From: Muribaculaceae bacterium Zag1
GTDB taxonomy: Bacteria; Bacteroidota; Bacteroidia; Bacteroidales; Muribaculaceae
Assembly (NCBI GenBank): GCA_002633115.1
Contig: NWBJ01000116.1
Span: 1 to 64,000 of the forward strand
Direction: 5' to 3'
Length of the DNA stretch: 64,000 nucleotides
Below, one piece after another: positions 23,455 through 61,847 of this stretch. Numbering within the stretch: the first letter of the stretch is position 1; each line of letters begins with the position of its first letter. The notes beneath the pieces were generated by a model. The model was not told the origin of the DNA, did no database searches, and worked only from the letters and a program-made list of their open reading frames with translations. Position numbers and translations under genes: made by a program.

Positions 23455-24665
23455 ATGGAAAATATAATGCGCCCCATATATCTAAAACAAGTGCTCAGTC
23501 ATCTCGACCGAGGGGTAATGCTTGTGCTCGTGGGCCAAAGGCGTGTTGGCAAAAGCATACTGTTGAAACTATTGAGACAGCATCTCGAAGACACTATTCC
23601 CGATGCTAATGTCATTTACATCAACAAAGAGTATAAGGAATTTGACCCGATAAAAGATTCCGATTCCCTATACAAATATGTTGATGAGCGTCTTGCCCCC
23701 CAGAAATGTAATTACTTATTGATTGATGAGGTGCAGGATGTGGATGAGTATGAATTGGCGTTGCGGAGTCTTAATGCGGAAGATAAGTGTCAAATAGTTG
23801 CAACCGGAAGTAATGCATATATATTTTCTTCGGAACTGAGTACCAAATTGGTGGGTAGATATGTGGAGATTCCGATTCATTCTCTTACTTATAGGGAATT
23901 TTTAACCTTGCACAGGCTGCCAGATTCGCAAGAGTCGCTTCTGACTTATCTTAAGGTTGGGGGCTGCCGGGTCTGTCACGGTATGACCTCAAAGACTTGG
24001 ACTCCGTCAAGGATTATCTGATGAGCGTGTACAACACTGTGATGATGCGCGATGTGATAGCGCGTGCGCAGATTAGGAATGTAACTTTTTTGGAGAATTT
24101 GGTTGCTTTCGTCGCTGACAATATTGGCAAACCGATTTCCATAAAGAGTATCTCCCGATACATGAAGTCGGTAGGCGTGCAAGTCTCTGAGCCCTTGATT
24201 ACATCCTATCTCGAGCATCTATGCTCAGCATTGATAATGTCACCGATGCGTCGATACAGTCTGCACGGAAAGGGCCTTTTGGATCCCAATGGTACATATT
24301 ATTTCGCCGACCATGGCCTCCGAAATTTGCTTACAGGATTCAATCTGCAGCAGAGCATTGAAAAAAATATGGAGAATGTTGTACGTACCCACATGTTGGC
24401 GCAGGGATTCACTCTTGATATAGGGTTGCTGCGGCGAGGAGAAATCGACTTTGTGGCCACAAAAAGCGACAACCGCATCTACCTGCAGGTGACCTATTTG
24501 TTGGATTCAGAGAGTACAATAGCTCGCGAATTCGGTAATCTCTTTTCCATCCCTGACAACTTTCCTAAATACGTAGTCTTGATGGACCCTCTCGGAGGCA
24601 CACCGGCCCAATATCCTGGCATCATCCCTATTCATCTCCGCGACTTCCTCAAAACTGATTTCTAA
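23455..24665 (+). pseudogene. DUF4143 ATPase, split by a one-base frameshift
   Basis: Two frames (23455-24021 and 23997-24665) join into one protein of about 403 aa. The first has Walker A VGQRRVGKSILLKLL, Walker B LLIDEVQDV, sensor VATGSNAYIFSSEL and LVGRYVEIPIHSLTYREF. The second has SVKDYLMSVYNTVMMRDVIAR and the DUF4143 nuclease-like end GEIDFVATKSDNRIYLQVTYLL and IHLRDFL. The shift falls in the GGGGG run at 23959-23963, where one more G restores VGGLPGLSRYDL. It may be a true mutation, an assembly error or slippage. Otherwise the gene is well preserved. Confidence 0.75.
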
Positions 24666-24726
24666 GAATCCATCACCAGGACACGCCTTGCAGGCATCAA
24701 CAACTCGGCTTTCATGGCTGGCTTTT

Positions 24727-24830
24727 TCATATCACCATCACCGCGCCTCTCTCCCTGAGCCGCTGCAGCGAGCTGCCGGGGTGGAGGGAGGCGAGTACCA
24801 GCTCATCGGCCACTGAGGCGATGTAATCGC
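24727..24830. repeat. duplicated 3' end of the SLOG-like gene, left copy
   Basis: 104 bp that align without gaps to 25621-25724 (about 92% identity). It encodes on the minus strand the same C-terminus (DYIASVADELVLASLHPG). The HigBA module lies between the copies. Confidence 0.85.
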
Positions 24831-24894
24831 ATCGGCGCTATCAATTTTCCTTCAAGAATTTTCACACTTGGTGTCGAGTTATGGAAACTTTTTG

Positions 24895-24915: not shown

Positions 24916-25299
24916 ATGTATATGAAGAAAAAGCCCCTAAAAGTTGATCATAGGATTCGAGTAATTCTAAGTGATGAAGTTGATGAATTTCTATCTACCC
25001 TCCCTCTTGAAGCGAAAAAGAAAATAATCTTCAATGTCGATAAGGTTGCTGCCAATGAGAAAGATTCCGAAATATTCAGCAAATTGGGCGGGACCGATGA
25101 CATCTGGGAGTTTCGTACTCTTTACAATCGAATAAAATATCGTCTACTTGCATTTTGGGATACTGAGGAGGAAACTTTGATTATTACTACTCATGGTTTC
25201 ATCAAAAAGACCCAAAAAACGCCTCTTAAGGAAATCAACCATGCTGAATCGGTTAAGAAGCAGTATTTTGAGACCAAACAGAAAAATCAGAAAAAGTAA
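24916..25299 (+). CDS. HigB/RelE-type toxin
   Basis: The protein has 127 aa. LSDEVDEFLSTLPLEAKKKIIFNVDKV, FSKLGGTDDIWEFRTLYNRIKYRLLAFWD and IITTHGFIKKTQKTPLKEI match the phage-derived Gp49-like/HigB branch of the RelE superfamily, normally a ribosome-dependent mRNA interferase. The basic/aromatic set Arg-Tyr-Lys-Thr expected in the catalytic strand and tail (TTHGFIKKTQKTP) is present. It comes first, and the antitoxin start overlaps its stop (TAATG), the order typical of higBA. Confidence 0.88.
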   Translation: MYMKKKPLKVDHRIRVILSDEVDEFLSTLPLEAKKKIIFNVDKVAANEKDSEIFSKLGGTDDIWEFRTLYNRIKYRLLAFWDTEEETLIITTHGFIKKTQKTPLKEINHAESVKKQYFETKQKNQKK

Positions 25300-25613
25300 T
25301 GAAAGAACTTAAATTTTATACTCTTGATGAAATCAAGGATAAGCATATTGGTAAAATAGGTACTCCAGAGCGAGACGAGTATGAAGCTGAACTCCAATCT
25401 TATCTTATTGGAGAGGCCATAAAGCGAGCCCGTGAGGCTAAACAGCTCACCCAAGAGCAATTGGGAGAATTAATGGGAGTACAAAAAGCTCAAGTTTCAA
25501 AGATTGAGAGTGGGCGTAATCTTACCTTTGCTACCATTCGCCGAGCCTTTAAAGCTATGAATATCAATGCCACCCTCGATATGGGCCAGTATGGTACTGT
25601 AGTATTGTGGTAA
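25299..25613 (+). CDS. HigA-type XRE antitoxin
   Basis: The protein has 104 aa. The C-terminal helix-turn-helix RAREAKQLTQEQLGELMGVQKAQVSKIESGRNLTFATIRRAFKAM is a clear Cro/C1 domain. The N-terminal 50 residues should bind the toxin. It is probably an autorepressor of the module. It ends 7 bp before the right-hand 104-bp repeat. Confidence 0.9.
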   Translation: MKELKFYTLDEIKDKHIGKIGTPERDEYEAELQSYLIGEAIKRAREAKQLTQEQLGELMGVQKAQVSKIESGRNLTFATIRRAFKAMNINATLDMGQYGTVVLW

Positions 25614-25620
25614 TCTCTTT

Positions 25621-25724
25621 TCATATCACTATCACCGCGCCTCTCTCCTTGAGCCGCTGAAGGAAACTGCCGGGGTGGAGGGAGGCGAGCACCAGCTCGT
25701 CGGCCACTGAGGCGATGTAATCGC
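25621..25724. repeat. duplicated 3' end of the SLOG-like gene, right copy
   Basis: This is the intact gene end. It matches 24727-24830 over 104 bp with about eight mismatches. Confidence 0.85.
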
Positions 25725-26082
25725 TGCGCCGCTCCGCATCGAATGGGGTAGGGCGATGCATACGCTCAGAGAGCGATATGAATAGCACCCTCCCCGCGTC
25801 AAAGACTGGACGTAATAGCTCCGGCACTTGCTTATAGACGGGGCGCAACTGTACCATCGCTATGCCGCACTTGCCATCCAATAGCAATCTTAAGGCCTCC
25901 TTCTCCAATTTGCTTTGGAATCCGCTGATGATGGTCACATCTTCGTGCCGAGCCACATCAGCCGCCCAATCAAGCATAGGCAGCACCGACCCATAGTCCA
26001 CCCTCCTCGATGCGAAAAAGCCAATTTTATGCCTCTGCATCAAGTCTTGATTTCCATGGAAGTATGCCTGTGGCAACGTCAT
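25621..26082 (-). CDS. SLOG/DprA-like Rossmann protein
   Basis: The protein has 153 aa. RHKIGFFASRRVDYGSVLPMLDWAADVARHEDVTIISGFQSKLEKEALRLLLDGK follows the SLOG (DprA/SMF-like) pattern: a first strand with a small-residue loop, then a GFxSxxE nucleotide-site-like segment. It is shorter than DprA and lacks the winged helix. It is the last gene of the restriction island, overlapping the upstream gene by 4 bp (ATGA). SLOG proteins in defence islands often sense nucleotide signals. Whether this one does is inference. Its 3' end is duplicated beyond the HigBA module. Confidence 0.6.
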   Translation of the reverse strand: MTLPQAYFHGNQDLMQRHKIGFFASRRVDYGSVLPMLDWAADVARHEDVTIISGFQSKLEKEALRLLLDGKCGIAMVQLRPVYKQVPELLRPVFDAGRVLFISLSERMHRPTPFDAERRSDYIASVADELVLASLHPGSFLQRLKERGAVIVI

Positions 26083-27206
26083 GAATCTCCCTCTTCTTCA
26101 GCTTCGGCGGCGAATAGAGCCCCACACTCAGGGAACAGCCCTCCAATATTTTTAGGGCGATTGCAAGCACGTTGAACTAACTCTACCTTAGCACCAAACT
26201 GATCCAAATTATGGAGGATGGTACGGATATGGATCATCTTATCCTCATTAGACCAATCGGTTACCAAATATTGGTCATCGCTTAATAGCTTTTGACGCTT
26301 AGAATAGAGTTCCTCTACCTTAGGTCCTATCAAAGGTACTTTTCCTCGAAACATGATGTCAGCTGCGTCAGCAGCCAATTTAGCCATATCTGGGCCAACA
26401 TGCTCTACTAATTTCACAAAGCTCTCCACCCCATCTTTCCCTTGAATCACAGTGCCATCCTCCATAGTGACACGGATAGTGGCTTTCTTTGAATCCACCT
26501 CGCTTTCATCGGATTCATCATCAGAAGAATCCGTCAAATCATCTGGATTTTCCGACATGTTAATCACCACCTCCACACCTAAATGCTTGGCTATGGCTTC
26601 CATCAAATCCTTTTTATCTGGATTGGAGTCATTGACCATAAGGAACTCCCCATTGCTCAATACCCTATAGTGGGCTTCTGAGCCTTTAGGCACAGTAGGG
26701 GTTATATACAGGATATCATTGCGTGTCTTATTGAGAGCCTTGATGGCATCGGCAGCTTTGTAAGGTCCGATGGTTTCAATAAACTCCACCAGAGTCTCTA
26801 CGCCTTTTTTGCCCTCTATGACTTTTCCATTCAGGAAATCCACCTTAAGGTGCTTTGTGGGCCCTTTAGTCTTTTTGCCTTCTTTCTTGGTTGGTTTTTG
26901 TTGAGTGGTTTTCTTATTCTTCCACTCAAATATTGTTTCCATCTGAGGCACCTCGTCAATCAATCCTATTTGGATTGATTTGCTTGGCTCATAGCTTATG
27001 GCTAAAGTTAACGGCTCTCCCTCATCCTTGATACAAGGCACAAGATTATTCTTTATGACTGCCTCAAGTTTCTTTACCAGATTAGCACGCATCTTAATCT
27101 GAAGTTGCTTCTTCAGCTCCGTAGTATCTCCACCAGCCTTCTCAGTCAATTTGATAAACTGGCGCAAATCTTCTACTGTAAATTTTCCGATATTCAGATT
27201 ATCCAT
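26079..27206 (-). CDS. duplicated-domain protein of the restriction island
   Basis: The protein has 375 aa, is acidic, and has no membrane segment. Residues about 120-220 and 240-350 are two copies of one domain. Copy 1 opens VDFLNGKVIEGKKGVETLVE FIETIGP and holds YRVLSNGEFLMVNDSNPDKK; copy 2 opens VTMEDGTVIQGKDGVESFVK LVEHVGP and holds DDQYLVTDWSNEDK. They are joined by an Asp/Ser-rich linker (DDLTDSSDDESDESEVDSKK). A Lys-rich linker (TTQQKPTKKEGKKTKGPTK) separates them from an N-terminal helical part. I cannot name the family, although similar domains are found beside restriction genes. It is tightly packed between the zinc-finger and SLOG-like genes. A DNA- or nucleotide-sensing accessory is a guess. 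Confidence 0.6.
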   Translation of the reverse strand: MDNLNIGKFTVEDLRQFIKLTEKAGGDTTELKKQLQIKMRANLVKKLEAVIKNNLVPCIKDEGEPLTLAISYEPSKSIQIGLIDEVPQMETIFEWKNKKTTQQKPTKKEGKKTKGPTKHLKVDFLNGKVIEGKKGVETLVEFIETIGPYKAADAIKALNKTRNDILYITPTVPKGSEAHYRVLSNGEFLMVNDSNPDKKDLMEAIAKHLGVEVVINMSENPDDLTDSSDDESDESEVDSKKATIRVTMEDGTVIQGKDGVESFVKLVEHVGPDMAKLAADAADIMFRGKVPLIGPKVEELYSKRQKLLSDDQYLVTDWSNEDKMIHIRTILHNLDQFGAKVELVQRACNRPKNIGGLFPECGALFAAEAEEEGDS

Positions 27207-27225
27207 GATTATAGTTTTTCAGTTT

Positions 27226-27819
27226 TTAAGAATCCAAGAGCCCATATTCATCCTCCTTTGATTTAGGCTTATAGACCGTACTCTTTTCTTGCTCATTATA
27301 ATGGGGGCTTTTCCATTTTCGAGAATATATTTTCTTTCCTGTTCTAGTTAGATAGAATGGCTCTTCTTTCTGACGCAAGCGAAACATAGCATTTACCTTA
27401 TCATAATGCATTTGCTTGACATGAGCCATGGCTTCCTTATCACATTTGAAAGTCGCTCCACACCATTTGCATCGCCATCTCTTTGATTTTGTATGGATTG
27501 TTTCTTTAGGGTCTTTACGGGAGCATTTCTCATTCGCGCCTTGTGCACTTGGAGGAGGGGTACTTGGTGCTTTTTGAGGCGATTTGCTTGATTTACTCTT
27601 CTCAGACTTCAATAAACGTTTTTGAGATAATGCTTTTATTAGGGTATTCTTTTTGGGTTTAGATTTCAATTGACGTTTCTTCCGCAACAAATCTCTAACC
27701 TGAATGCCTTCGAGGTAGCATCTGTGAGCTGATAATTGATGATCTACCAATTCTAACTCTGTGTCAAACTTACACAGACAAATTGGGCAAACTTTCTCAT
27801 ATAGGGCATTTGTTTTCAT
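27226..27819 (-). CDS. C2H2 zinc-finger protein
   Basis: The protein has 197 aa from MKTNALYEK. A GGGAGA ribosome site favours this start over the ATG at 27837. It has two classical C2H2 fingers. CPICLCKF...DHQLSAH starts at residue 11 (C-x2-C, H-x4-H). CKWCGATF...AHVKQMH is near residue 118. They are separated by a Lys/Ser/Pro-rich basic linker. C2H2 fingers of this form are uncommon in bacteria and would bind DNA or RNA. The protein lies directly behind a fragment of the methyltransferase 3' end and 19 bp before the duplicated-domain gene, so it belongs to the restriction operon. Confidence 0.75.
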   Translation of the reverse strand: MKTNALYEKVCPICLCKFDTELELVDHQLSAHRCYLEGIQVRDLLRKKRQLKSKPKKNTLIKALSQKRLLKSEKSKSSKSPQKAPSTPPPSAQGANEKCSRKDPKETIHTKSKRWRCKWCGATFKCDKEAMAHVKQMHYDKVNAMFRLRQKEEPFYLTRTGKKIYSRKWKSPHYNEQEKSTVYKPKSKEDEYGLLDS

Positions 27820-27823
27820 AAAC

Positions 27824-27942
27824 TTAATCTCCCTCATTATTTAGCTCGTCACCCATGCGATATTTGATATCGTATTTGACTTCTTCAGTAAAACCATAGT
27901 GTTCCGCAAGCGCCTTATCGATTTCATCGATGATGGGCTTAG
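27824..27942 (-). pseudogene. detached 3' fragment of a second methyltransferase allele
   Basis: It encodes KPIIDEIDKALAEHYGFTEE and KYDIKYRMGDELNNEGD-stop. The intact gene at 30106 ends KPIIDEIDKVLAEHYGFTEE...NYDIKYRMGDELNNDDTE. A 15-bp in-frame deletion and scattered changes separate them. The fragment shows that another allele once ended here, overlapping the zinc-finger gene. Confidence 0.85.
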
Positions 27943-28140
27943 TGCTTCATTACTCTCCACATAGCGTAAGCATTCTTTTTGTTTCATGGCTTCCTTTCGT
28001 CTTAAAATCAATCTTATACCTGATTCAGATGCAAAGATAGTTAGTTTTTGTGAATTTCCAAACTGAAGTTTAAAAATTCTTTATTCCATCACTCTATTGC
28101 TTCCCTCCTCAAAAGGAAGTCCTCTTTATCCATTGAAAAC
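27943..28140. other. spacer below the 650-aa gene
   Basis: AT-rich. On the minus strand a short open stretch MKQKECLRYVESNEAL runs into the methyltransferase fragment out of frame. Nothing else is supported. Confidence 0.4.
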
Positions 28141-30093
28141 TCAAGAAGAATTAACCACAAAATAGTGACTCAATGCATCCCTAAATTTAGGATAGCGTTG
28201 ACGTTTATTAGGGAGGGTTGATGTGAAATATTTTACATAGGCCAGGAGGGCGAATTCTTTAAACTCTTTAGGCACCCATTGGATGTATTCTTTACTGGCC
28301 AAATCAGAGGGAGACATATGTAACCGTCCCTTTTCCCACCAGAGATAGGATATAAACTCATCCTTTGCTGGATTCAATTTATACCAATCACTATTCCAAG
28401 CATAATTTTCCCATATCATATAGATATCTCTATCGGGTGACCATATATTACAAATATGAGCCTCCTTATGCTCGGGATAATCCAAATAAAAAGAAGTTAC
28501 TCTCACTACCTCATTTACAGTATAATCAAGCATTTGCTTATACTCTGAATCTTTCTTGAATTCTATAGCAAGATAGACCTCAACAAATGCTCCGACCTGC
28601 TTAATTACGGATTGTTGAAAACTTACATGGTCTCCCAACACCCAATAATTAGTGTTGACATAGTGTTGAAAACGTGTCAACGGAGAATCAAAAGGCTTCT
28701 TAAGAAAATAACAATTGCGTCCAAAAAAGACTGTGCTAATTGTCCTATCTCCTTCTCCATATATGGGAACGGCCTGGTCGCAAATTTTAAATTCTCCTGA
28801 TACAAAATACACAGGCAATTTGTCCACTCCATTAAGAAGCAGATGGGTATTGGAAGAGGACAAACCCGTATATAGAGTAATCTTTCTTTGAAACAAATTC
28901 CTCAGAATCGGAATCAGATATTCATCTAACTTCTCTTCTATAGCCTCACTTTCTTCGTATGAGAAAAGACACCTATATGGCTTAGACACCCTTTCGAATA
29001 TTTCTTCTAAGGTATGCTTTGTCTCAATCCATTTTACGTTGGCATTCTCATTGGAAAATATGATATAGCCATCATATATTTGACTTTTTTTGGTGTCGAG
29101 TTCACAATAATATGCGGCTGCCAACTCCTCCTCTATCTGATTAGTTACCTCTTTGATTACTACGGCCTTTATCTTATCTCTTACACTAATAAAGCGATTT
29201 AGCAACTCTCTTTCTTTACTAAATTGCCAGATATAAAGAGCCATTTTTTCTGGAGTATCGTTGAGGCTTTTTTTATCCCCAAAGACCACAGCATCTTTAA
29301 ATATAGTATGCATAAGCGGTCCTGAGGTACCCTTAACCAATCCCAATAACTCATCATAAGAAATCTCTAACTCCACGCTAAGACTTCTTAATTCATTCTC
29401 TATAGTGGTATATATAGGATCAAACTTTATCCCTTCAGTAGCCTTGAGAACTTTCTCCACCTTATCTTTAGCCACAGAAATCTTATATCTAAAAATCTGT
29501 AACGGATCCTCTAGCCACTCTCCGCCTTGAGGATTATTTACATAGGCCTCACAAACTGACAGAAATTTAGTTAATCCCTTGTTTTCTGTAAAAGCAAAAG
29601 TATTATTGCTCACTAATACTATTTCAAACTCCCTATCAAGCCCCTGGAGGGAGGCTTTAGGGTAAGCTCTTAGGATTTTCTTAGAAGAAATGTAAAAACC
29701 TAAGTCATGTTTTATCAACCCAGGAGTAATAGTGAAGTCAGTGGCTTTACACACCAGCTTCATCCCTTTTCTTGAAACTTTAGTGGAGTCTTCTTTTGAA
29801 CTCTTCTTATTTCCTTTTTTGTTCCCTTTTTTGTTCCCTTTTGTTTTTACTTTTTTATTATTTTTCGTAGAATCAGGAGTTATCTCTATACTCTTGTTAT
29901 GGTATTCTACAGCCATGGTCCCATATCCTCTGATATCTGGCGCAGAGTGGCTTTCTATAAAGCCCTTTATGCCTTTGGGTATGATGCGAGATGAGTATTT
30001 TTTAGATATCCATCTATCTATCTGAGCCTCCTTATAAAACCACAATCCCCTATCTTGAACATAGTGCTTAGGGGTCATATACATACTTGCCAT
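28141..30093 (-). CDS. 650-aa orphan protein of the restriction island
   Basis: The family is not recognised. The protein is soluble, with no signal peptide. The N-terminus (MYMTPKHYVQDRGLWFYKEAQIDRWIS) is followed at about 85-105 by a low-complexity KGNKKGNKKGNKK tract coded by 12-bp repeats. The remaining 550 residues are well mixed, with YIIFSNENANVKWIETKHTLEEIF and DHVSFQQSVIKQVGAFVEVY. The Lys/Ile/Tyr-rich composition reflects AT-rich codons unlike the neighbouring core genes. It starts 12 bp after the methyltransferase stop, so it is co-transcribed, and it is bracketed by two copies of the methyltransferase 3' end. It is most likely a swapped-in accessory of the restriction system. Confidence 0.6.
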   Translation of the reverse strand: MASMYMTPKHYVQDRGLWFYKEAQIDRWISKKYSSRIIPKGIKGFIESHSAPDIRGYGTMAVEYHNKSIEITPDSTKNNKKVKTKGNKKGNKKGNKKSSKEDSTKVSRKGMKLVCKATDFTITPGLIKHDLGFYISSKKILRAYPKASLQGLDREFEIVLVSNNTFAFTENKGLTKFLSVCEAYVNNPQGGEWLEDPLQIFRYKISVAKDKVEKVLKATEGIKFDPIYTTIENELRSLSVELEISYDELLGLVKGTSGPLMHTIFKDAVVFGDKKSLNDTPEKMALYIWQFSKERELLNRFISVRDKIKAVVIKEVTNQIEEELAAAYYCELDTKKSQIYDGYIIFSNENANVKWIETKHTLEEIFERVSKPYRCLFSYEESEAIEEKLDEYLIPILRNLFQRKITLYTGLSSSNTHLLLNGVDKLPVYFVSGEFKICDQAVPIYGEGDRTISTVFFGRNCYFLKKPFDSPLTRFQHYVNTNYWVLGDHVSFQQSVIKQVGAFVEVYLAIEFKKDSEYKQMLDYTVNEVVRVTSFYLDYPEHKEAHICNIWSPDRDIYMIWENYAWNSDWYKLNPAKDEFISYLWWEKGRLHMSPSDLASKEYIQWVPKEFKEFALLAYVKYFTSTLPNKRQRYPKFRDALSHYFVVNSS

Positions 30094-30105
30094 ATCTCCT
30101 ATCTC

Positions 30106-33100
30106 TTATTCAGTGTCATCATTGTTTAGCTCGTCACCCATACGATATTTGATATCATAGTTGATGATAAAATCCAACTCTTCTTCCGTAAAGCCATAGT
30201 GCTCCGCAAGCACCTTATCGATTTCATCGATGATAGGCTTGGAAAGGCGAGGCTTGAATGTCTGCATGGACAAACGTCCATATTTTTTATATTCAGCTTC
30301 TACAAAGACAGAATTCCTCTGCAAGTCCTCGTTTATCAGCTTACCAAGGGAGAAAAGTGATGATAAATCATTTCCCATTAGATCTAATGGGAAGGATTCA
30401 ACTTCTCTATTGTTTAGATTCCTACAATCAGATAAACCGATAAAGAACCAAAAGAATATGTCTGAAAGATATATAGCATTGGATCGATATAAAAGATCCT
30501 CAGTAGAGAAATATTGAGTCTTTAGTTCTGACGTCACTCTTAATTTATTCTTCGCATCATATATTTTGGGAGGTGTGTCAAGGAATTGAACAAAGTATCT
30601 AAGCTTACGAGTATGGTATAGAACATGCTCTGATCCATTGATAGTATACATACTCATTTTTGAATTAGAGAGAATCTTACTTAGAATACTCTTTTCGTAA
30701 TCAGTAGATATTTTGGGTATAGTATTCAGATAGTGAAGGGTTTTATTCACTATAGTATACTCAATTCCCTTAAATAATCTCTCTCGATTTACCGAGTACC
30801 ATCTATAGTACTTGCTAGAGAGGATTTCAGGGCTGCCAGGTCTGCCAAGAAGAATACAAAGATGCTTTTCTGCCCCCTCAAACAACTTACTCGGCCGCAT
30901 GGAATAATTAGAGTAATAGAGGGTAGACTTTTCCTTAGAGAGGATATTTCTCAGAGATAGAAATCCGTCAGTACTATTCGCCGATATAGGTAGAATCATT
31001 CCAAAAGAGGAAATATTTTTAGAGATTTGTAGAGACCGTTCAATTACCATTGCATATAAATCTCGACACTCTAAGGTGTTGAACCCTGTAACTAAGTAGT
31101 CAAAAGTGGCCTTATTGTATACTACATACGGTGGGTTGCCTATGATGACATCGAAGCCGCCATTGTCATTGATGATTTCGTAGAATTCGGCAATCCAGTG
31201 GAATGGTTGATGAGAGGCCAGCCAATGCTTATAACCAAATTGGCTGTATATGGAATGCTTATAGAGATGATGATTGAGATCCTTGTTGAGGATGTCAAGA
31301 CGCAGTTTCAGTTCGAGCTTATTTTTCTTGTACACATCGAGCTGGTCAGGGGCTTGGGATAGTTGGGCATCACGGAATGTGCGATAGATGGCAGCAATCT
31401 TTACCATCTGAGGCTTTATCTTTGCATCATATTCCTCCTGAGCAAACATATTGCCAGGGTCGGCATCAATCACTGCTTGCTCGTTGGCATACCCTACCAG
31501 CGTATTGCCGCAGCGGATGTTGAAATCAATATCGGGCAGAGGGTCAAGGCCCAGGTTGGGCGCGTAGGGGTCAGCATCGACAACTGCTACCATCTTAAGG
31601 AAGAGGCGCAACTTGGCAATCTCAGTGGCCTCGGCCATGATATCCACACCATAAAGATTGCGGAGAATAATCGACTTGAAGATGAAATAATGGTCATTGC
31701 TCCGGTAATGGGCTGAAATCTCATCCATCGCTACCTTGACAACAGGGATGTTTTGTCCCTTGGCGCGTAGAATCTGTATGCAGTCGTAGTAGAGAGGCTC
31801 GAGTATATTCATGGCTGCGAACAAGAATGCTCCCGACCCACAGGTCGGGTCAAGGATAGTGACCGTGCGCAGCGCATCGTAGAAATGATATACCCACATC
31901 ACATCGCCTCGCTTTGATGCCTCAGCAATGAGGTCGGTAGCAAATTGGCGAATATCAAGATTGTAGGTGATAAAATCGTTGATGCTATGGATTTCGCCAT
32001 TGCGAATCTTGCCAAGGATATCATCGCAACGCTCAAGCCTCTCGATGGTCTCTCGCCATATTTCTGTAGGGAGGGCCCAAGGTGCCGGAGTCGGTGTATT
32101 CCAAAGCCGACGACGCTCAAGCAGATTAAGATGACTTTCGGTCACTGGCAGCTGGGCCTCCTCGCGCTCTTCGGGGCGCAAGATGCCCACCGAAATCTCC
32201 TCCGGGATTTCCTCTCGCCAATTAGGAGTGTGGCCCTGCTGTACTGCATCAAAGATGTACCGCTTGCCGCTGTTGCGCAACATCTCCCATACCCAACCTC
32301 GCTGCGGATCAAAGGATTCTGCCATTTTCTTATTAGCGCGTGCTGCCTTGTCGAGCAAGAACGGCACAATCGTATTGCGACCGATGTATTCGGTAATGTC
32401 CTCTTTTGTATAATAGGCACCCATCTGAGCGCGGTCGTTGATATACTGCTCGAAGATATAGCCCAGCACATCGGGGTTGATGTCGCGACCCGTAGCTGTG
32501 ATGCGGGTATCGAGGTGCCACTGCCATTTGTTGAAGAAATCAAACAGATTCGCAAAGGCTAAATCGGGTATGTCAATATCGGGGTAATCGCGCTCAAGCT
32601 TATGCTTGTCAAACATACCACCATTCAAATATGGAATTTGCCCATATTGGCGCTCAAACTCTATATCATGCTGGGGTTTGTTGAGACCATCGGAGAATAG
32701 CTTGGTCAGGAAGCCTTTATAGAAGGTATGATAAAATCGATTCGCTCCTCTCTCCTCCTGCACCCAACGCAGTTTGTTTGACAAATAATCCTTGTCGTCA
32801 TCAAGAAATCCTTTTTTCTGGATGAAATAGCAGAACATTAAGCGATTGAGCATCACTGATGAATACCAATCCCTATCCTCCAGATCATCGATACCTTGAA
32901 TCAAGGCCGCAAACTCCTTATGATGCTTCTTGAACTTGGCATAAAACTCTTTGGTAATCTTTTCAGAGTTGACCAAGAAAGCACGATGCACAGCCTCCTT
33001 GACATCCACAATTGTCAACTGAGCGCCCATCGGGAACGTGATGGCATCGATTTTTGAGTATAGGAAATCAGCCTGAGCCCCTGATGAGAACTCAACAGTG

Positions 33101-33441
33101 ACCAAGTCGCGCTTGTCGACATTCTTTACCGGCACAACCCATTGCTGATGCCCTGGATGGCCCTCAACTAAGAATATCAAAATGTAATCAGCCGCTTGCT
33201 TGCGCAACTCAACATCGATGCGGCGCAGCATTGAGGTCGGGGGCAGATGATCAATCTGGCAAGTGACAATCTGAAAGCCCTCTCTCACGGCAATTTCTGA
33301 CATTCTGTAGAGTTTGTCGCCCACTTCGAGCAAAATCGGAGTGTTGCGTCTCGGTCGATTCCAACCGAGATGACCGATAAACAACTCTTTGAGGTTGCCT
33401 TCGCCTATCAGTGATGTGAAGTCTCTTTTGTCCATAATCAA
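30106..33441 (-). CDS. Eco57I-type N6-adenine DNA methyltransferase
   Basis: The protein has 1111 aa. SAM-binding motif I is TILDPTCGSGAFLFAAMNIL (Asp531). Motif IV is GGFDVIIGNPPYVVYNK (Asn769-Tyr772), the adenine-N6 signature. About 400 N-terminal residues (GNLKELFIGHLGWNRPRR, MLNRLMFCYFIQKKGFLDDD, GAYYTKEDITEYIGRN) and a 300-residue target-recognition region follow the style of PglX/type IIG enzymes. There is no N-terminal PD-(D/E)xK motif that I can see, so cutting would rest on the helicase partner. The GC-richer first two thirds give way to an AT-rich target-recognition part after about residue 790, typical of specificity swapping. ATGA overlap with the helicase gene. Confidence 0.85.
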   Translation of the reverse strand: MIMDKRDFTSLIGEGNLKELFIGHLGWNRPRRNTPILLEVGDKLYRMSEIAVREGFQIVTCQIDHLPPTSMLRRIDVELRKQAADYILIFLVEGHPGHQQWVVPVKNVDKRDLVTVEFSSGAQADFLYSKIDAITFPMGAQLTIVDVKEAVHRAFLVNSEKITKEFYAKFKKHHKEFAALIQGIDDLEDRDWYSSVMLNRLMFCYFIQKKGFLDDDKDYLSNKLRWVQEERGANRFYHTFYKGFLTKLFSDGLNKPQHDIEFERQYGQIPYLNGGMFDKHKLERDYPDIDIPDLAFANLFDFFNKWQWHLDTRITATGRDINPDVLGYIFEQYINDRAQMGAYYTKEDITEYIGRNTIVPFLLDKAARANKKMAESFDPQRGWVWEMLRNSGKRYIFDAVQQGHTPNWREEIPEEISVGILRPEEREEAQLPVTESHLNLLERRRLWNTPTPAPWALPTEIWRETIERLERCDDILGKIRNGEIHSINDFITYNLDIRQFATDLIAEASKRGDVMWVYHFYDALRTVTILDPTCGSGAFLFAAMNILEPLYYDCIQILRAKGQNIPVVKVAMDEISAHYRSNDHYFIFKSIILRNLYGVDIMAEATEIAKLRLFLKMVAVVDADPYAPNLGLDPLPDIDFNIRCGNTLVGYANEQAVIDADPGNMFAQEEYDAKIKPQMVKIAAIYRTFRDAQLSQAPDQLDVYKKNKLELKLRLDILNKDLNHHLYKHSIYSQFGYKHWLASHQPFHWIAEFYEIINDNGGFDVIIGNPPYVVYNKATFDYLVTGFNTLECRDLYAMVIERSLQISKNISSFGMILPISANSTDGFLSLRNILSKEKSTLYYSNYSMRPSKLFEGAEKHLCILLGRPGSPEILSSKYYRWYSVNRERLFKGIEYTIVNKTLHYLNTIPKISTDYEKSILSKILSNSKMSMYTINGSEHVLYHTRKLRYFVQFLDTPPKIYDAKNKLRVTSELKTQYFSTEDLLYRSNAIYLSDIFFWFFIGLSDCRNLNNREVESFPLDLMGNDLSSLFSLGKLINEDLQRNSVFVEAEYKKYGRLSMQTFKPRLSKPIIDEIDKVLAEHYGFTEEELDFIINYDIKYRMGDELNNDDTE

Positions 33442-36400
33442 ATCCTATTTCTCAGGCCCATTGAGCAGATTATCTTATGTTCTTTTTCTCGCGTCTCATC
33501 TTCCTCGATGATGCAGAGCTGGCCATTGCGGCGCAACTCGAGCACATAATCGAGGATTTCGTCATCCATAGCTCTGCCGCCTTTGCGCAGCATTCGGCTT
33601 AAGGCTCTCTTTGAAGCCTCTTGCAGAGGATACTTGTAGATGTCATCGATGGCGTATTTCAGTTCCTCTTTGGTCTCGGGAGTGAAAATCAGATTGTTGG
33701 CCTGACCATAGAGGGCCTCTAACAGGTTGACTAATTGCAATCGAGTGGAGAATCGTCCGCCAAGCATCCCCTCGGTCGAGGTTTGCTCTTGCTCGCGCAC
33801 TTCTTCCACAGCTTTCTTTACAAGTTCATGGTGGTTGTCAAGCGCAGGCGCGGCAGGGGTGTTGGGTTCGCAAGCCAAAGCCGACAGGATGCGTTGCTGG
33901 CTCTGAGTCACTACCTCGCCATCAGCATTTATCCAAGTGAGGATGTCAAAGTCGCTGGCTGTGCGAGCATAGGTGATTACGCCCTCTCGACCCTCAGTAT
34001 CGGTGGCTTTGGTGGAATAGACCATGTTTTGCAGATTGGGAATCTTCTCCTTAAGGCTCTTGTCGGCCTTGATGGCTTTGGTCCAAATCTGGTAGGCTTG
34101 AGACACAAGGTCAACCTCGTTGTCCTCTTCCTCATCATCGAGCACTCCGGCTCGTTCGTTGAACATATCCCTCAGATTCTGCTCATTGCCCTCAAAGAAT
34201 ATCTCATCGGAACCAACAACATTGGCATTCTTGTTTATGCGCTCGTTGAGACGTCCGCGCAGGTTGATAATCTCCTCAACGCCTTCGGCTGGGAAGAAGG
34301 AATAGCAGTGTATCTGCTCGGCTTTTTGCCCGATACGGTCGACACGTCCAGCCCTCTGTATCAAGCGAATGATAGCCCAAGGCAGGTCGTAATTGATTAT
34401 GACATGGGCATCCTGCAGGTTCTGGCCCTCAGAGAGCACGTCAGTGGCCACAAGCACACGCGTTTGCTCATCGATAGTCAAATTTTTCCCATTACTATTT
34501 GGCGAGAACTTATCAACAATAGCTGTAGGGTTTTGGCTATTGCCAGTAGCGATATCGATATGAGTGATACCGCGCTTTTTGAGTTGATTGTAGATATAGC
34601 GGGCGGTATCGGAATATTGTGTGAAAATCACTGCCTTGTCCTTGCCGTGCAGCTTATGTTCGGGGTGGGTGCCGTCCAATAGTAGCTCGAGCTCATTGAG
34701 CTTTTGATCTTCCTTTTGCTTCCATTTGCCGCATAGCTCGATCATCTTTATCACAATCTCACAGTCCTTCTTTAGTTGCTGCTTAAGAGTACGCTTGAAA
34801 TATTTGCCTTCAATCCACGCCACATTGTTTTTCTGAGATAGGATATCATAGTACTCTTTAGCCTTGCGCATATATACTGCCATATCGGTAGGTATATTCA
34901 ATTCGCCATCAATAGGGAGGTCGATGCGCTCGTCATCGCCGAACACTCCTCCTGATTCGTTATCCATATCTTCGGAATAGTCCTCTGGCAGATTATTGTC
35001 ATCACCAACAGGAAGCTCCAATTTATTGTCGAGCGCATAGAGATATACACAGTTGCGCAGGATATGGCGATAGAGGGAGAGAAGGAATGAGAAGCCGCTG
35101 GAATCCATTCGCTTGAAAAGTGTACTCTTGCAAAAGCCCATCATTCTGGCTCCTGCTTTCGATAGGTTCTTGAGGATAATCTGTTGATTTGTGGAGGCCT
35201 CTGTGGCTGCTTTTTCATTCACGAAATTACTCAAGCCATATCGGGGCAGTGAGAGGGATTCCAACAGGTCGACCATCTCCTCAGAATAGAGGCGGCTATA
35301 CTGGTCGCCAGGACGAGTGGGGAATTTTATAGAACGGGGTACTCGGTCGGGAAAATATGAGCGAGTGCCATCGTTGAACTCCAAATATTTGCGACCATTC
35401 TTGGGGTCAGTCTTGGCATAATACTGCTTGATGAATGAGCGGGTGCGCCTTACCAGGAACATGCGCATCAATTCATTCCAATCGTCAACGTCTTCGCTCT
35501 TTTGGAAAGCTCCGATGGTGCGGATATGGGTGTCGCCATGACGCTTCATAAACTCGCGTTCACCACCTATCGATTGGATATATTTCTCAGGTCTGATTCC
35601 TAAGTCTTGATTCTCATCTACAAACAGTCGCAACTGGTTGGCCAAGTCGTTGTAATGCTTATTGTATGGGGTAGCGGTCAAGAGCAATACTCTTGACGAC
35701 TGCGCATCAATCAACTTCTTGATATCCTCATATCTCTTACCGCCATTTCTGAGGTTGTGACTCTCATCGATGATGATAAGGCGGTAATAACGCATGGTTT
35801 CGATATCGATTCTCTTGGCCATCGACATCACCTCGGCCTTCAGGTTGAAATCGCGGATATATTTACCCCACATTTCCTGCAGGTTAGCCGGACAGATAAT
35901 CAGCGTACTCGATGCGTAGGCCATCTCAAAGATCTTGGCTACGGCACAAGCGGTGATGGTCTTGCCAAGGCCCACCACATCGCCTATCATTGCGCCTCGG
36001 CGTTTGTCATTGTTGAGATGGCGAGCCACCATCTTCACAGCATTTTGCTGGAAGTCAAAAAGTATTGACTGGAATTCTGGAGGCAACACAAATTCTTTGG
36101 CTCCATTTCTTGCCTCTTCGCTCAAATGGTAAGCGACTTTGAGGTAAATCCAGTAGGGTGGAATGTCACGGTCGGCAGCCCAACTCTCGTTGATGGCCTC
36201 TTCGAGCTCTTGGGTGATATCGACGCTGAAAATGTCGTTCCAATGTTCTTCAAACCAGCGGTTGAATTTCTCGGCTTGGTCGCGGTCGGCAAACTCTGCA
36301 TTTAGTTCGCCATTCTTAGTCAAGCCAGCATAAGTGAGGTTGCTGCTACCCATCAATGCGAGGATGGGATTGAAGCGGTCCTCAGGACGATGGGCCAGAT

Positions 36401-36851
36401 ATAACTTGGCATGTAGGGGTTCGCGGGCCGATAGCTTCACTACCACTTTCTTGTCGCGGAGCTGGGCGCTGAGTCGGCGCAGTGTCCACTCGTCTTGCTT
36501 GCTGGGAAGGCCAATGAGTAATTGTTTGCGGAAGTCTTGGGCTATCTGCCTTTTCAAGCGTTGCACCAAATCGGAATCGGCAATGAATTCCTTACTGGAA
36601 TAGAGTTGGCGTAGGATGTCATTAGGAGCTTGATGCATGCCCACGAGCAAACGGCAGACTCTATGTTCGCGAGTACGGCCCTCGGTGACGAAATCGCCCT
36701 CGAGGCTGTCTACGTCGTCGAGCACGAGTTTCCAACCGCGCAGATTGAAATACCCCACGCAGAAATCTACGCGCTTCACCCCTGGGCTCTCAATTATCTC
36801 TTTGAGTCCGTCTTCAAATTTAATATCTCTGTTGTCGTATATGCGAGCCAT
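33438..36851 (-). CDS. PLD-nuclease / SNF2 helicase fusion
   Basis: The protein has 1137 aa from MARIYDNRDIKFEDGLKEII. The longer frame to 36980 has no family support. Residues about 10-215 are a phospholipase D-like nuclease domain with the HKD motif H147-A-K...GSSNLTYAGL. Residues about 265-520 are SF2 helicase domain 1: Walker A GDVVGLGKT at 290-298, IIIDESHNLRN, and LLTATPYN. Domain 2 carries VIFTQYSDTARYIYNQL, VLVATDVLSEGQNLQDA and IRLIQRAGRVDRIGQ. All core motifs are intact. It is a DNA translocase that could cut with its own PLD domain. It is the first gene of the island and overlaps the methyltransferase by 4 bp, so it is probably the restriction subunit. Confidence 0.85.
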   Translation of the reverse strand: MARIYDNRDIKFEDGLKEIIESPGVKRVDFCVGYFNLRGWKLVLDDVDSLEGDFVTEGRTREHRVCRLLVGMHQAPNDILRQLYSSKEFIADSDLVQRLKRQIAQDFRKQLLIGLPSKQDEWTLRRLSAQLRDKKVVVKLSAREPLHAKLYLAHRPEDRFNPILALMGSSNLTYAGLTKNGELNAEFADRDQAEKFNRWFEEHWNDIFSVDITQELEEAINESWAADRDIPPYWIYLKVAYHLSEEARNGAKEFVLPPEFQSILFDFQQNAVKMVARHLNNDKRRGAMIGDVVGLGKTITACAVAKIFEMAYASSTLIICPANLQEMWGKYIRDFNLKAEVMSMAKRIDIETMRYYRLIIIDESHNLRNGGKRYEDIKKLIDAQSSRVLLLTATPYNKHYNDLANQLRLFVDENQDLGIRPEKYIQSIGGEREFMKRHGDTHIRTIGAFQKSEDVDDWNELMRMFLVRRTRSFIKQYYAKTDPKNGRKYLEFNDGTRSYFPDRVPRSIKFPTRPGDQYSRLYSEEMVDLLESLSLPRYGLSNFVNEKAATEASTNQQIILKNLSKAGARMMGFCKSTLFKRMDSSGFSFLLSLYRHILRNCVYLYALDNKLELPVGDDNNLPEDYSEDMDNESGGVFGDDERIDLPIDGELNIPTDMAVYMRKAKEYYDILSQKNNVAWIEGKYFKRTLKQQLKKDCEIVIKMIELCGKWKQKEDQKLNELELLLDGTHPEHKLHGKDKAVIFTQYSDTARYIYNQLKKRGITHIDIATGNSQNPTAIVDKFSPNSNGKNLTIDEQTRVLVATDVLSEGQNLQDAHVIINYDLPWAIIRLIQRAGRVDRIGQKAEQIHCYSFFPAEGVEEIINLRGRLNERINKNANVVGSDEIFFEGNEQNLRDMFNERAGVLDDEEEDNEVDLVSQAYQIWTKAIKADKSLKEKIPNLQNMVYSTKATDTEGREGVITYARTASDFDILTWINADGEVVTQSQQRILSALACEPNTPAAPALDNHHELVKKAVEEVREQEQTSTEGMLGGRFSTRLQLVNLLEALYGQANNLIFTPETKEELKYAIDDIYKYPLQEASKRALSRMLRKGGRAMDDEILDYVLELRRNGQLCIIEEDETREKEHKIICSMGLRNRI

Positions 36852-37027
36852 AGGCGCAGCCTTCCATGGAATCCGCTGTGCCCGTGCGGGGTGTGATATT
36901 TGACTGATTGGCAAAAAGAAAAAGCGCAGGCACAAATCCTTGTTGCTGCCTGCTCTTGGGGCTCCGGAATTGCCCAACATCTCAGACGAGCAACGCAGAA
37001 GCCTACGCTATGGTACAGACCAAAAAT

Positions 37028-37224: not shown

Positions 37225-37280
37225 CTACGGCAAAGTTAAGAGTTTTTTCCCAATTCCACAAGAATATCGGGAGAAAAATG
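37225..37280 (-). repeat. 56-bp promoter-bearing direct repeat, helicase side
   Basis: Four or so mismatches to 38763-38818. On the minus strand it contains TAACTTTG (-7) followed by CCGTAG, so it is likely the promoter now facing the helicase operon. The plus-strand end GAATATCGGGAGAAAAATG is identical in both copies. Confidence 0.8.
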
Positions 37281-37290
37281 CGAATCATTA

Positions 37291-38673
37291 TTAATTCGCT
37301 TCCGTTGGGGGCTCTGGGGAGGGGAGGCCGTTATGCTTCTCTTTCAAGTAAGAGCGATAGCGTTGGAGCAAGAAGGTGCAATAATAAGGGATTGTGAGGA
37401 CATTGTTGGCGAAGCCTATATTGGCCATAGCCAATTTAATGCCCCAATGGATATCAGAATATTTGTCTGACTCTATAACGGTTTTTAGTGACTTATTCTG
37501 ATTGTTATTAGCTTTGACTTCAATGGGTATTAAGGATTCAAAATCACGCGTAAAGAAATCAATCTCCAATGAAGAATCTTGACGCTTGTAGTAGAATAGT
37601 GGCATACCAGCCTTTACCATGGCCTCGGCTACAATATTCTCATAGAGGCCACCTTTGTAGGTGCCGAGATTTTTATTTGCTCTTAAGTCATACTGCGATT
37701 CTTCGTCGAGCTGCGCTACCAGCAATCCGGTGTCGGCAATGTAGAGCTTATATTTAGTAGGGTCATAATTGCCCTTAAGGGGCAATTCGGGGAAATTCAT
37801 ACAATAGCAGATATTTATAATACCAGCATCCATGAGCCATTCGACGCATCCCCAATAATCTTTGGTTTTTGCACCAGAAGCTACCTTGGATATCTGGAAT
37901 TTCTTATTCTCTTGGGCCAGCTGCACGGGTATACGGTTGTATACATTGAGTATGCGTGTCTGGTCTATGCCCTCGACATATTTTCTAATGTCTTCTTTAT
38001 AGTCTTCAATAATCTGCAGTTGCAATTCGAGGATGCCTTGGAAATTTTTGTTTTCTACAAACTTTGCTACGGCAGCAGGCATTCCACCTATCACACAATA
38101 ATCTCTAAAGTGAGAGAAAAATACGTCTTGATGTAGAGCACTGAAAGGTTCTCTTTTGACCAAGTGCTCAAACATCTCATCTATCACCTCTTGAGCGTAC
38201 CCGATAGCCCAAAGGTATTCTTCAAAATCCATAGAGAACATTTGATAGTCGATCTTATAACCGACGCTGACACTCTCTATGCGTTTATAATGAATGCCAA
38301 GGAGAGAACCGCTGCATATCACATCATAGTTGCCGTCTTGATTAAAGAATTTTAGAGCGGTTGCTATTTCGGGAAACTCTTGCAACTCATCAAAGAAAAT
38401 CAATGTGTTGCCCGGCGTAAACTTCACCTCTGGCCATAGCAAAGAGATTCTCTTCATAATGGCTTGAGGAGAGTATCCGTCTAAGATTATGTCCTTGAAT
38501 TGGGGATTTTCGACAAAGTTGATTTCTACAAAGTGTTCGTAGTTAGCCTCGGCAAACTGCCTAATCGAAACAGTCTTGCCTGTCTGCCGCGCTCCCTTTA
38601 CAATGAGGGGCTTATGATTGGGAGTAGCCTTCCAATCTGCTAAATATTTGTCTATGTGACGCTTAAGATACAT
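37291..38673 (-). CDS. AAA ATPase with DUF4143 nuclease-like domain
   Basis: The protein has 460 aa from MYLKRHIDKYLADWK. The frame is open 258 bp further but only through the tandem leader repeats. Walker A is at 26-34 (KGARQTGKT), Walker B is NTLIFFDELQEFP, and sensor-1 region is VICSGSLLGIHYKR. SVSVGYKIDYQMFSMDFEEYLWA is a family block. The C-terminal DUF4143 part has SSLEIDFFTRD and IPIEVKANNNQNKSL, a D...E-x-K nuclease-like core. The family is widespread in Bacteroidetes and archaea. Function is not established. It is bracketed by the 56-bp repeat, and its 5' leader holds three 33-bp units. Confidence 0.85.
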   Translation of the reverse strand: MYLKRHIDKYLADWKATPNHKPLIVKGARQTGKTVSIRQFAEANYEHFVEINFVENPQFKDIILDGYSPQAIMKRISLLWPEVKFTPGNTLIFFDELQEFPEIATALKFFNQDGNYDVICSGSLLGIHYKRIESVSVGYKIDYQMFSMDFEEYLWAIGYAQEVIDEMFEHLVKREPFSALHQDVFFSHFRDYCVIGGMPAAVAKFVENKNFQGILELQLQIIEDYKEDIRKYVEGIDQTRILNVYNRIPVQLAQENKKFQISKVASGAKTKDYWGCVEWLMDAGIINICYCMNFPELPLKGNYDPTKYKLYIADTGLLVAQLDEESQYDLRANKNLGTYKGGLYENIVAEAMVKAGMPLFYYKRQDSSLEIDFFTRDFESLIPIEVKANNNQNKSLKTVIESDKYSDIHWGIKLAMANIGFANNVLTIPYYCTFLLQRYRSYLKEKHNGLPSPEPPTEAN

Positions 38674-38676
38674 ATT

Positions 38677-38762
38677 CCTAAAATTAGAGCCACTTTTTAT
38701 CGATTCAACCCTAAAATTAGAGCCACTTTTGAGGCGTTTTACCCTAAAATTAGAGCCACTTT
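38677..38762 (-). repeat. three direct repeats, 33-bp period, in the leader of the DUF4143 gene
   Basis: CCTAAAATTAGAGCCACTTT occurs at 38677, 38710 and 38743, exactly 33 bp apart with variable 13-bp spacers. In gene sense it reads AAAGTGGCTCTAATTTTAGG and ends 4 bp before the start codon. The -7 box TAACTTTG (38769-38776) lies upstream, so the units are in the 5' UTR and the last one supplies the AGGA ribosome site. Confidence 0.9.
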
Positions 38763-38818
38763 CTACGGCAAAGTTAAGTGTTTTTCCCCAATCCCCCAAG
38801 AATATCGGGAGAAAAATG
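38763..38818 (-). repeat. 56-bp promoter-bearing direct repeat, ATPase side
   Basis: Partner of 37225-37280. It contains the -7 box of the DUF4143 gene and abuts the stop codon of the upstream gene. Confidence 0.8.
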
Positions 38819-40057
38819 TTACTTGCGGAGGCGGGAGATGGCTTTTTCGAGGGATTCGGTGGGCTCGATGATGTTGTAGCCTTTCCAAAAATCGGGGTCC
38901 CAGAATAGGAGGGCTTTGTCGGAGAAGGCATCGTTGGAGCGAAAAGCGTCGCTGCGCGAGATGTTGTCGGCTACCCCGACCTCACGATCGACGGTGACCA
39001 TCTCGGCCACGGCTGTATAGCCCGAGGCGAAGAGGCGCCTCTTCCAGTCGCACTTGAATCTCATCTCATTTTTGATATAGCTGAGATATGTCATGCCATC
39101 GCTTCCTTGGCGATAGGCCACAGTGAAGCCAACCTTTTGCAAGCTGAATCTCAACCCTGCGGGCTTTTTGCGCAGTATAGTCTTGACGGCCAAGGCCTTG
39201 TCGCTGAGGTCGAGGTCGAGTTCAGCGCGAGTGAAAGCCAGCTCTTGCGCATCGACATACACTATGCCCTGCATCAGCGGATAGGACAATTTCTGTACTG
39301 GCTTGATACTGATGGCGTATTGGGGGCGCCCGTCAAACTCAACCATCGGCTCCATCTTGAGCTCATAAGCGTCAAGCTCCGTTTCGCTCAGGAAGAAGTC
39401 GGGATTCTTTACAAAGTCGAGCATGATTGACAGGTTGGGCCCACCCGTAATCTTGACAGCGAGGGTGTCAGAGGCGTTCTGGCTCATGATCTTGCGCGCC
39501 TTGAGCACTTGGGCTCGGTCATTGCCGGGTGTGCGCATCCGATAGGCCGACTTGCTCACGCCCATGATGGCCTCGGACACCTCGGTGTATTTCTTTCCCT
39601 TTTGTATAGTCTCGCGATAGAAGACTGAGAGGCGGTCGCGGGTCTGGGGATAGTTGTTGGGTATCTTCCTGAGAGCTTGGCGTATGATGTCGTCAGGGTT
39701 GCCCCAGTAGACAATCATTTCTCCGAGCAGCATTGAAGCGCGCTCGAGCATTATCGCCGACTGCCCGGCAGCCTTGGCAATTGGCAGCGAGGCGTTGCTG
39801 TATCCGAGCATCGAGATTACTATTGCCTCATTGGCCAGGCTATCGGGCACTGTGAGCGAGAATGCGCCATCGGCGTTGGTGATGGTGCCGATATTATGGC
39901 CGTCGACACCGACATTGGCGTTTGCCACTGGCTTTTTGCTCTTGGCATCTTTCACCACGCCTGATACCACAATCCCCTCGCATACTTGCGCATGAAGCGG
40001 CACCCCAGCCCCCGCCAGGACCCATAATATTAATATGGCGCAAATCATCTGCCTCAT
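38819..40057 (-). CDS. exported carboxypeptidase-regulatory-like domain protein
   Basis: The protein has 412 aa. The signal peptide is residues 1-24 (ending PLHAQ). CarboxypepD_reg-like beta-sandwich is at about 28-105: VVSGVVKDAKSKKPVANANVGVDGHNIGTITNADGAFSL and ISMLGYSNASLPI. The remaining 300 residues (IIRQALRKIPNNYPQ, LSVFYRETIQKGKKYTEVSEAI) match a family often seen in Bacteroidetes envelope proteins near DUF5686. It is likely periplasmic or outer-membrane-facing. Role unknown. It has its own promoter at 40075-40105. Confidence 0.75.
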   Translation of the reverse strand: MRQMICAILILWVLAGAGVPLHAQVCEGIVVSGVVKDAKSKKPVANANVGVDGHNIGTITNADGAFSLTVPDSLANEAIVISMLGYSNASLPIAKAAGQSAIMLERASMLLGEMIVYWGNPDDIIRQALRKIPNNYPQTRDRLSVFYRETIQKGKKYTEVSEAIMGVSKSAYRMRTPGNDRAQVLKARKIMSQNASDTLAVKITGGPNLSIMLDFVKNPDFFLSETELDAYELKMEPMVEFDGRPQYAISIKPVQKLSYPLMQGIVYVDAQELAFTRAELDLDLSDKALAVKTILRKKPAGLRFSLQKVGFTVAYRQGSDGMTYLSYIKNEMRFKCDWKRRLFASGYTAVAEMVTVDREVGVADNISRSDAFRSNDAFSDKALLFWDPDFWKGYNIIEPTESLEKAISRLRK

Positions 40058-61779: not shown

Positions 61780-61847
61780 GTCAATTGATCTTTTGAGAGG
61801 TATAATGCAAAGATAGCAATAAATTTTGATAGTAAAGTAATCTTTCG

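Follow-up and report, generated by a model that had tools for sequence, protein, structure and literature searches.

The window analyzed here, a 64,000-nucleotide stretch of contig NWBJ01000116.1 (C116) from Muribaculaceae bacterium Zag1 (GenBank assembly GCA_002633115.1), carries a gene set that we read, on balance, as an ATP-dependent restriction-modification (R-M) system of three core genes with exchangeable specificity and exchangeable cargo. The core genes encode a PLD nuclease fused to an SNF2 helicase (HEL), an N6-adenine methylase (MTASE) and a small protein of predicted DprA fold (SLOG). Six minus-strand open reading frames (ORFs), ordered HEL, MTASE, ORPH, ZNF, DUP and SLOG, fill positions 25621–36980, with gaps or overlaps between neighbors of −4, 12, 303, 19 and −4 bp. 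The 303 bp gap between ORPH and ZNF is the sole spacer in the run; an earlier note on this DNA had already reported six minus-strand genes with one spacer, and the ORF coordinates bear it out.

33438–36851, minus strand: HEL, PLD nuclease fused to SNF2 helicase, core gene 1 (profile searches; start from a 79-sequence alignment)
30106–33441, minus strand: MTASE, N6-adenine methylase of the PADLOC REase_MTase_IIG family (PDLC03628), core gene 2
28141–30093, minus strand: ORPH, 650-amino-acid cargo protein, no relatives found
27226–27837, minus strand: ZNF, C2H2-type zinc-finger cargo protein (Pfam)
26079–27206, minus strand: DUP, N-terminal helices and two copies of a predicted SeqA-like domain, the commonest accessory family
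25621–26082, minus strand: SLOG, small protein of predicted DprA fold, core gene 3

Three genes recur together

A search of 395 Bacteroidota genomes found MTASE relatives in 11, counting the genome of the window, and further MTASE-aligned loci were taken from species genomes as the best 80 of at least 496 relatives, a sample that leans to close relatives. With two duplicates dropped, the set comprised 88 loci (the window, 7 and 80), many of them truncated by contig ends, and all predicted proteins within 10 kb of the methylase were clustered across them. Only three families occurred in more than 12 of the 88 loci: MTASE (88, by selection), HEL (83) and SLOG (68). The next most frequent were DUP (12), a tyrosine recombinase (10), RhuM and DUF1016 (9 each) and an AlbA/Schlafen-like family (8), the cluster names being those of single members scanned with Pfam. 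By profile search, SLOG was present in 69 loci, absent from 8 with at least 4 kb of downstream sequence, and not assessable in 11.

Recurrence of the accessories with the helicase–methylase pair in other genomes was the test that the earlier note had set for its own proposal: SLOG passes, recurring with the pair in 69 of 77 assessable loci, and ZNF and ORPH fail, recurring in 0 of the 87 other loci. Of these 87, 11 carry a DUP-family gene, and the family also stands beside other N6-adenine R-M systems. A single six-gene system with a "SLOG/zinc-finger sensing branch", as had been proposed, is unsupported, with SLOG belonging to the core and ZNF and ORPH non-recurrent; ATP-dependent restriction with PLD cleavage and an N6-adenine mark is supported by protein anatomy, but not as one system of six genes.

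Within the window's genus, a close HEL (at least 61% identity) was found in 4 of 49 genomes, the window included. One congeneric locus (L128) has an empty slot between MTASE and SLOG and a split methylase frame, another (L129) has an SLFN_AlbA_2 gene after MTASE, and L127 is truncated by a contig end. A sister operon on a Parabacteroides distasonis plasmid (L119:389–12422) pairs a PLD-SNF2 protein with an Eco57I-type methylase and also carries a TIR-domain protein and a DUP-family gene; it gave no SLOG match.

Conserved catalytic residues and a hypervariable methylase region

The longest HEL ORF spans 33438–36980. Translation most likely starts at 36851, as the earlier note had it, because 76 of the 79 sequences in the alignment, the window's among them, have a methionine where the longest ORF has its Met44. 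Pfam identified PLD and SNF2/Helicase_C domains, in agreement with the previous description of a helicase bearing its own PLD nuclease, and no PRTase domain.

36240–36590, minus strand: PLD domain of HEL (Pfam PLDc_2 and conservation)
34329–36050, minus strand: SNF2/Helicase_C motor of HEL (Pfam and conservation)
30292–31041, minus strand: hypervariable region of MTASE, residues 801–1050, presumed target-recognition domain (conservation profile)

The PLD residues H190, K192, N214 and E225 (longest-ORF numbering) and the motor motifs K340/T341 and D405-E406 are kept in all 79 aligned HEL sequences. We take the H-K-N-E pattern to resemble that of BfiI; a single-sequence search of the PDB with the PLD domain returned no match up to E 1. 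Among PADLOC models, HEL scored 182.3 bits with "HKD+Snf2", above DrmD at 131.7 bits, and 81.3 bits with HmaA. A second, distant HEL-type helicase (30% identical) lies on another contig of the same genome (C110; L130:5562–11598) and is followed by a 230-amino-acid gene and, judging by eye, a type III methylase-like gene. In five loci (L052, L058, L077, L085 and L087), tyrosine-recombinase family genes, checked with Pfam for the L052 member, lie shortly upstream of HEL and may move or shuffle the system.

MTASE matches the PADLOC type IIG profile PDLC03628 at 888.7 bits over residues 16–1106, and Pfam places in it the Eco57I domain that had been called from the sequence. The motif N769-P770-P771 is present in 80 of 80 aligned methylases and Y772 in 79. 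No conserved D...(D/E)XK set was found within residues 1–180 of the 80 methylases at a 93% threshold; the earlier remark that the methylase has no visible nuclease therefore holds at the motif level, which a divergent nuclease could escape. As a type IIG candidate, MTASE combines the profile match with the lack of a same-chain endonuclease motif. Its variable C-terminal region is presumed to be the site of target recognition.

The third gene product has a predicted DprA fold

A predicted model of SLOG shows the DprA Rossmann fold, with ShosA as the nearest fold; Pfam returned nothing above cut-off. Comparison of identities across locus pairs did not find a specific co-divergence of SLOG with HEL. 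DprA homologues are antitoxins of shosTA, syrTA and rqlHI (PMC9122126), and the DprA-like RqlI restrains the helicase RqlH (PMC4670107).

A slot between MTASE and SLOG holds variable cargo

In 27 of the 69 loci with SLOG after MTASE, SLOG follows directly, with no same-strand ORF of at least 75 amino acids in between; in the other 42, this slot is filled, with 77 proteins altogether. Pfam was run on 40 of the 107 proteins encoded in the slot or right behind it, hand-picked and mostly one per cluster; 28 had a match above cut-off and 12, including two DUP members, had none. Slot contents vary across loci and include toxin, abortive-infection and R-M-accessory genes: DarT with Macro (L016), Fic (L020), MTaX1-HNH (L021), the YhcG nuclease (L029), RhuM (L087), NYN (L026), KAP (L072), DUF3644 (L086), RelB with PIN (L061) and SLFN_AlbA_2 (L025). 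The L025 slot also holds AAA_15 and DUF4435 proteins that match PADLOC AriA (113 bits) and AriB (58.5 bits) and is therefore PARIS-like, and that of L042 holds RloB with an AAA_21 ATPase, matching AbiLi (207.8 bits) and AbiLii (53.9 bits).

In the window, the slot contains ORPH, ZNF and DUP. Searches of 296 Bacteroidota genomes, 198 genomes of its order, plasmids and, by a pattern-based search, viral contigs found no relative of ORPH other than itself. Searches of Pfam, NCBIfam and PADLOC with a limit of E 1 gave no match to it, and its best matches were at E 0.33 in the PDB and E 0.09 in PHROGs. A HEPN assignment was considered for ORPH and is not claimed; its lone R-x4-H (residues 638–643) is a single motif at chance level. 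The C2H2 zinc finger previously ascribed to ZNF is supported by a best finger match of 24.8 bits, just below Pfam's cut-off of 27. ZNF has no relatives among the neighborhood proteins (best E 1.2), nor in the 198 genomes of the order except its own.

DUP is a candidate methylation reader

The DUP family profile matches DUP twice, so that the domain duplication seen in the earlier note is real; Pfam returned nothing above cut-off for DUP, nor for ORPH.

26520–26852, minus strand: first predicted SeqA-like domain of DUP
26148–26480, minus strand: second, diverged copy of the domain (sequence repeat; modeled with low confidence)

Of the 12 DUP genes, ten sit within the slot or immediately downstream of SLOG; of the other two, one follows MTASE in a locus without SLOG (L093) and the other is farther away on the opposite strand (L069). 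Relatives in other contexts accompany type III (L105), type I (L109) and HSDR_N-fused (L110) systems and the PLD-SNF2/Eco57I-methylase sister operon (L119).

A fold search with DUP ranked SeqA first, and the TNTNTGRK region of SeqA, presumably with its residues N150 and N152, aligns with the conserved stretch of the DUP family. Profile comparisons gave less: SeqA was not among the PDB matches of the whole-protein DUP profile and was listed by the domain-only profile without significance, below unrelated chains. When a SeqA hidden Markov model was run against 1352 neighborhood proteins, a DUP member (L089) ranked first at E 0.15, with other members at or below noise. DUP also matched PADLOC CARF at E 0.0024, where the fold search had instead ranked SeqA first. 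With its fold moderately supported, DUP is read as a probable SeqA-like DNA-binding protein and would sense the state of adenine methylation. Its N-terminal helices, followed by a linker and a C-terminal domain whose predicted fold may match that of SeqA, recall the layout of SeqA of Escherichia coli; unlike in SeqA, the domain is duplicated, and DUP stands beside R-M genes in Bacteroidota.

Specificity and cargo appear to be exchanged

Among 1830 pairs of 61 loci, we compared the 22 closest by HEL. In these pairs HEL is 89–97% identical, MTASE residues 1–300 are 79–97% identical and SLOG is 57–87% identical. Over MTASE residues 800–1050 identity is only 20–34% in 20 pairs, the remaining two being at 63% and 55%, and the last 60 residues return to 62–92% identity, with one pair excepted (18%). 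Most of the closest pairs also carry cargo that is different, in whole or in part. Among the five closest, L025 and L077 have largely different cargo with one AlbA-cluster member in common; L086/L048 and L076/L065 contrast cargo with none; L038 and L059 carry different short genes, and L051 and L071 share the same DUP family.

30119–30240, minus strand: MTASE 3′ end, original copy of a direct repeat (nucleotide repeat)
27834–27940, minus strand: scar in the spacer, what remains of a duplicate MTASE 3′ end (91–92% identical in two blocks, with a 15 bp deletion)
24724–24845, minus strand: scar on the far side of a toxin–antitoxin-like pair, what remains of a duplicate SLOG 3′ end (111 of 127 aligned columns equal to 25618–25744)
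24916–25299, plus strand: Gp49/HigB-like toxin gene beyond SLOG (Pfam PF05973)
25299–25613, plus strand: helix-turn-helix (HTH) antitoxin-like gene (Pfam HTH_3)

The duplicate MTASE 3′ end in the spacer, which the earlier note does not mention, suggests an older order of HEL-MTASE-ZNF-DUP-SLOG, into which ORPH would have arrived together with a new methylase end or beside one. To judge from the scar, the true ZNF start is likely the ATG at 27819. The SLOG 3′-end copy means that the Gp49/HTH pair (24916–25613) is bracketed in the same manner as ORPH. Such scars are not universal: six of the 88 loci carry repeats of the MTASE 3′ end, long in the window, L030 and L053, of 40 nt in L061 and short in L084 and L103. 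By comparison, repeats of the MTASE middle (short) were found in 2 of 88 loci and of its start in none; for HEL the counts were 1 of 83 (end), 0 (middle) and 0 (start), and for SLOG 2 (end), 3 (middle) and 4 (start) of 69. Second SLOG copies, each after a methylase C-terminal fragment, occur at L030:13619–19699 and L053:19046–20090 and resemble spare cassettes downstream of the operon. The repeats of core-gene ends suggest that slot cargo is swapped there by recombination.

Upstream of the operon, a 56-nt direct repeat (93%; 37225–37280 and 38763–38818) has one copy just outside and one within the 5′ part of a DUF4143 ATPase ORF (37291–38931), the latter adjoined by three tandem 33-nt repeats at 38677–38775; it may be another insertion scar. 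On the other side, a perfect 23-nt inverted repeat without a spacer (23356–23401) lies upstream of an AAA_14-type gene (23455–24665) that is broken into two overlapping frames. Elsewhere in the window are three similar-looking genes at 4329–6065, 53982–55607 and 60208–61923; Pfam identifies the last as AAA-ATPase_like with PDDEXK_9, and the likeness of the other two was judged by eye only.

Comparison with known systems

The exclusion of BREX and DISARM in the earlier note holds in the tests made. For BREX, neither PglZ nor BrxC was among the listed matches of the six window genes (the top 25 for MTASE and for HEL), and no fourth family exceeds 12 of 88 loci. PglZ-domain proteins are encoded elsewhere in the genome, off C116, with two above the Pfam cut-off (C45:54095–54679 and C24:44593–45015) and one below it (C92:4277–4450); the PglZ domain also occurs in PorX of Bacteroidota. 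For DISARM, there is no separate DrmA or DrmB gene among the six; DrmA and DrmD matches fall on the helicase region of HEL, the latter far under its NCBIfam cut-off (152.6 versus 610 bits). A search of the genome for the DUF499 ATPase gave 0 matches, with a positive control in Thermotoga maritima, and the six genes have no Pfam match to the type I specificity domain (HsdS), again with only three families exceeding 12 of 88 loci. By these tests the locus is not of the BREX, DISARM or DUF499/Hma kind; in architecture it comes closest to Type-2 BR/Hma systems.

Type-2 BR/Hma systems likewise have an HKD/PLD nuclease N-terminal on an SNF2 helicase and a paired N6-adenine methylase (PMC12839542). 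Whereas those own a DUF499 ATPase and DUF3780, the third protein here has a predicted DprA fold and DUF499 is lacking; DUF3780 was without a profile search. BREX and BR systems are also described as carrying auxiliary effectors (PMC12839542). ARMADA has a YprA helicase (PMC12458937); here no fourth family recurs, YprA itself being without a profile search.

Type I R-M is one ATP-dependent R-M system for comparison, and type ISP is another. Both resemble this locus in combining a motor, a nuclease, N6-adenine methylation and a shuffled target-recognition region; here, by contrast, HsdS is lacking, specificity presumably resides in the methylase chain, the nuclease is a PLD domain and there is an additional DprA-like protein. 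ShosTA, PsyrTA and RqlHI, whose toxin partners are of the PRTase or RecQ-like kind, also place a DprA-fold protein beside a dangerous DNA-acting enzyme, but HEL has no PRTase domain and the core here includes a methylase and a PLD nuclease. Defense genes inside R-M operons, with families partly shared with this slot, are known from type I hsd loci. HEPN, Fic/Doc and RhuM genes occur in R-M operons (PMC3710099), and rloA/rloB lie within a Campylobacter hsd region (PMC2928727). The host operon differs here, being the PLD-SNF2/IIG-like/DprA trio, with a slot mostly in one place and repeat scars that suggest exchange.

A model for the system and its alternatives

Under the three-gene R-M reading that we favor, MTASE would recognize a DNA sequence by means of its variable C-terminal part and methylate adenine in host copies, as its family and motifs suggest, and this methylation would protect self. 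HEL, to judge from its anatomy, would engage unmarked DNA, translocate by its SNF2 motor and cut with its PLD nuclease. SLOG may restrain or license HEL, perhaps freeing it on single-stranded or phage DNA, by analogy with RqlI and RqlH. The cargo would serve as a back-up defense, and DUP would read methylation. A fully coupled version, in which SLOG licenses HEL, the SeqA-like reader of the slot reports methylation to cargo toxins, and loss or inhibition of the R-M core triggers a suicide effector, is speculative and has a small chance of being right.

Several other readings were weighed. The cargo may merely be parked, a recombination-prone operon end gathering independently acting defense genes that are uncoupled from R-M; we regard this as somewhat improbable, though a serious contender. 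DarTG and PARIS act alone elsewhere, and the cargo is highly diverse, both of which fit. Yet the slot recurs in the same position inside the operon, and the DUP relatives found outside this operon all lie in or beside R-M genes (four contexts). R-M-linked toxin genes have, besides, been described as multi-level defense (PMC3710099). In a further reading, unlikely in our estimation, SLOG would serve the cargo as its antitoxin, sensor or loader instead of partnering HEL, and would close the operon by chance, which would leave a core R-M system of two genes. SLOG lies just after the cargo, DprA homologues are antitoxins (PMC9122126), and the L119 operon carries cargo yet gives no SLOG match; SLOG is retained, however, in the 27 of 69 loci whose slot holds no payload.

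The locus might also descend from a BREX-related Type-2 BR/Hma system, an HKD-helicase with an N6-methylase that lost its DUF499 ATPase. The shared helicase architecture and methylase pairing described for such systems (PMC12839542) favor such an origin, but with no DUF499 in the genome, no further gene family in more than 12 of the 88 loci and an HmaA score of 81.3 bits versus 182.3 bits for HKD+Snf2, we consider it distinctly unlikely. That MTASE is an ordinary stand-alone type IIG enzyme, with the helicase and the rest as chance neighbors in a defense island, would agree with its full-length match to REase_MTase_IIG; this is very improbable given that loci chosen on the methylase alone contain HEL in 83 and SLOG in 68 of 88 cases, and that no conserved D...(D/E)XK set was found in the first 180 residues at the 93% threshold.

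No name for the PLD-SNF2/IIG-methylase/DprA trio was found in the literature searched, most subscription papers lying outside its reach. The locus is apparently a recurrent three-gene R-M core, unnamed so far: an ATP-dependent R-M system with a known kind of R-M-linked cargo. It places a DprA-like protein inside an R-M operon, and in DUP it offers a candidate reader of methylation that is not of the SeqA lineage. The naturally empty and full slots offer a comparison for asking whether R-M operons use exchangeable toxins for their own protection.

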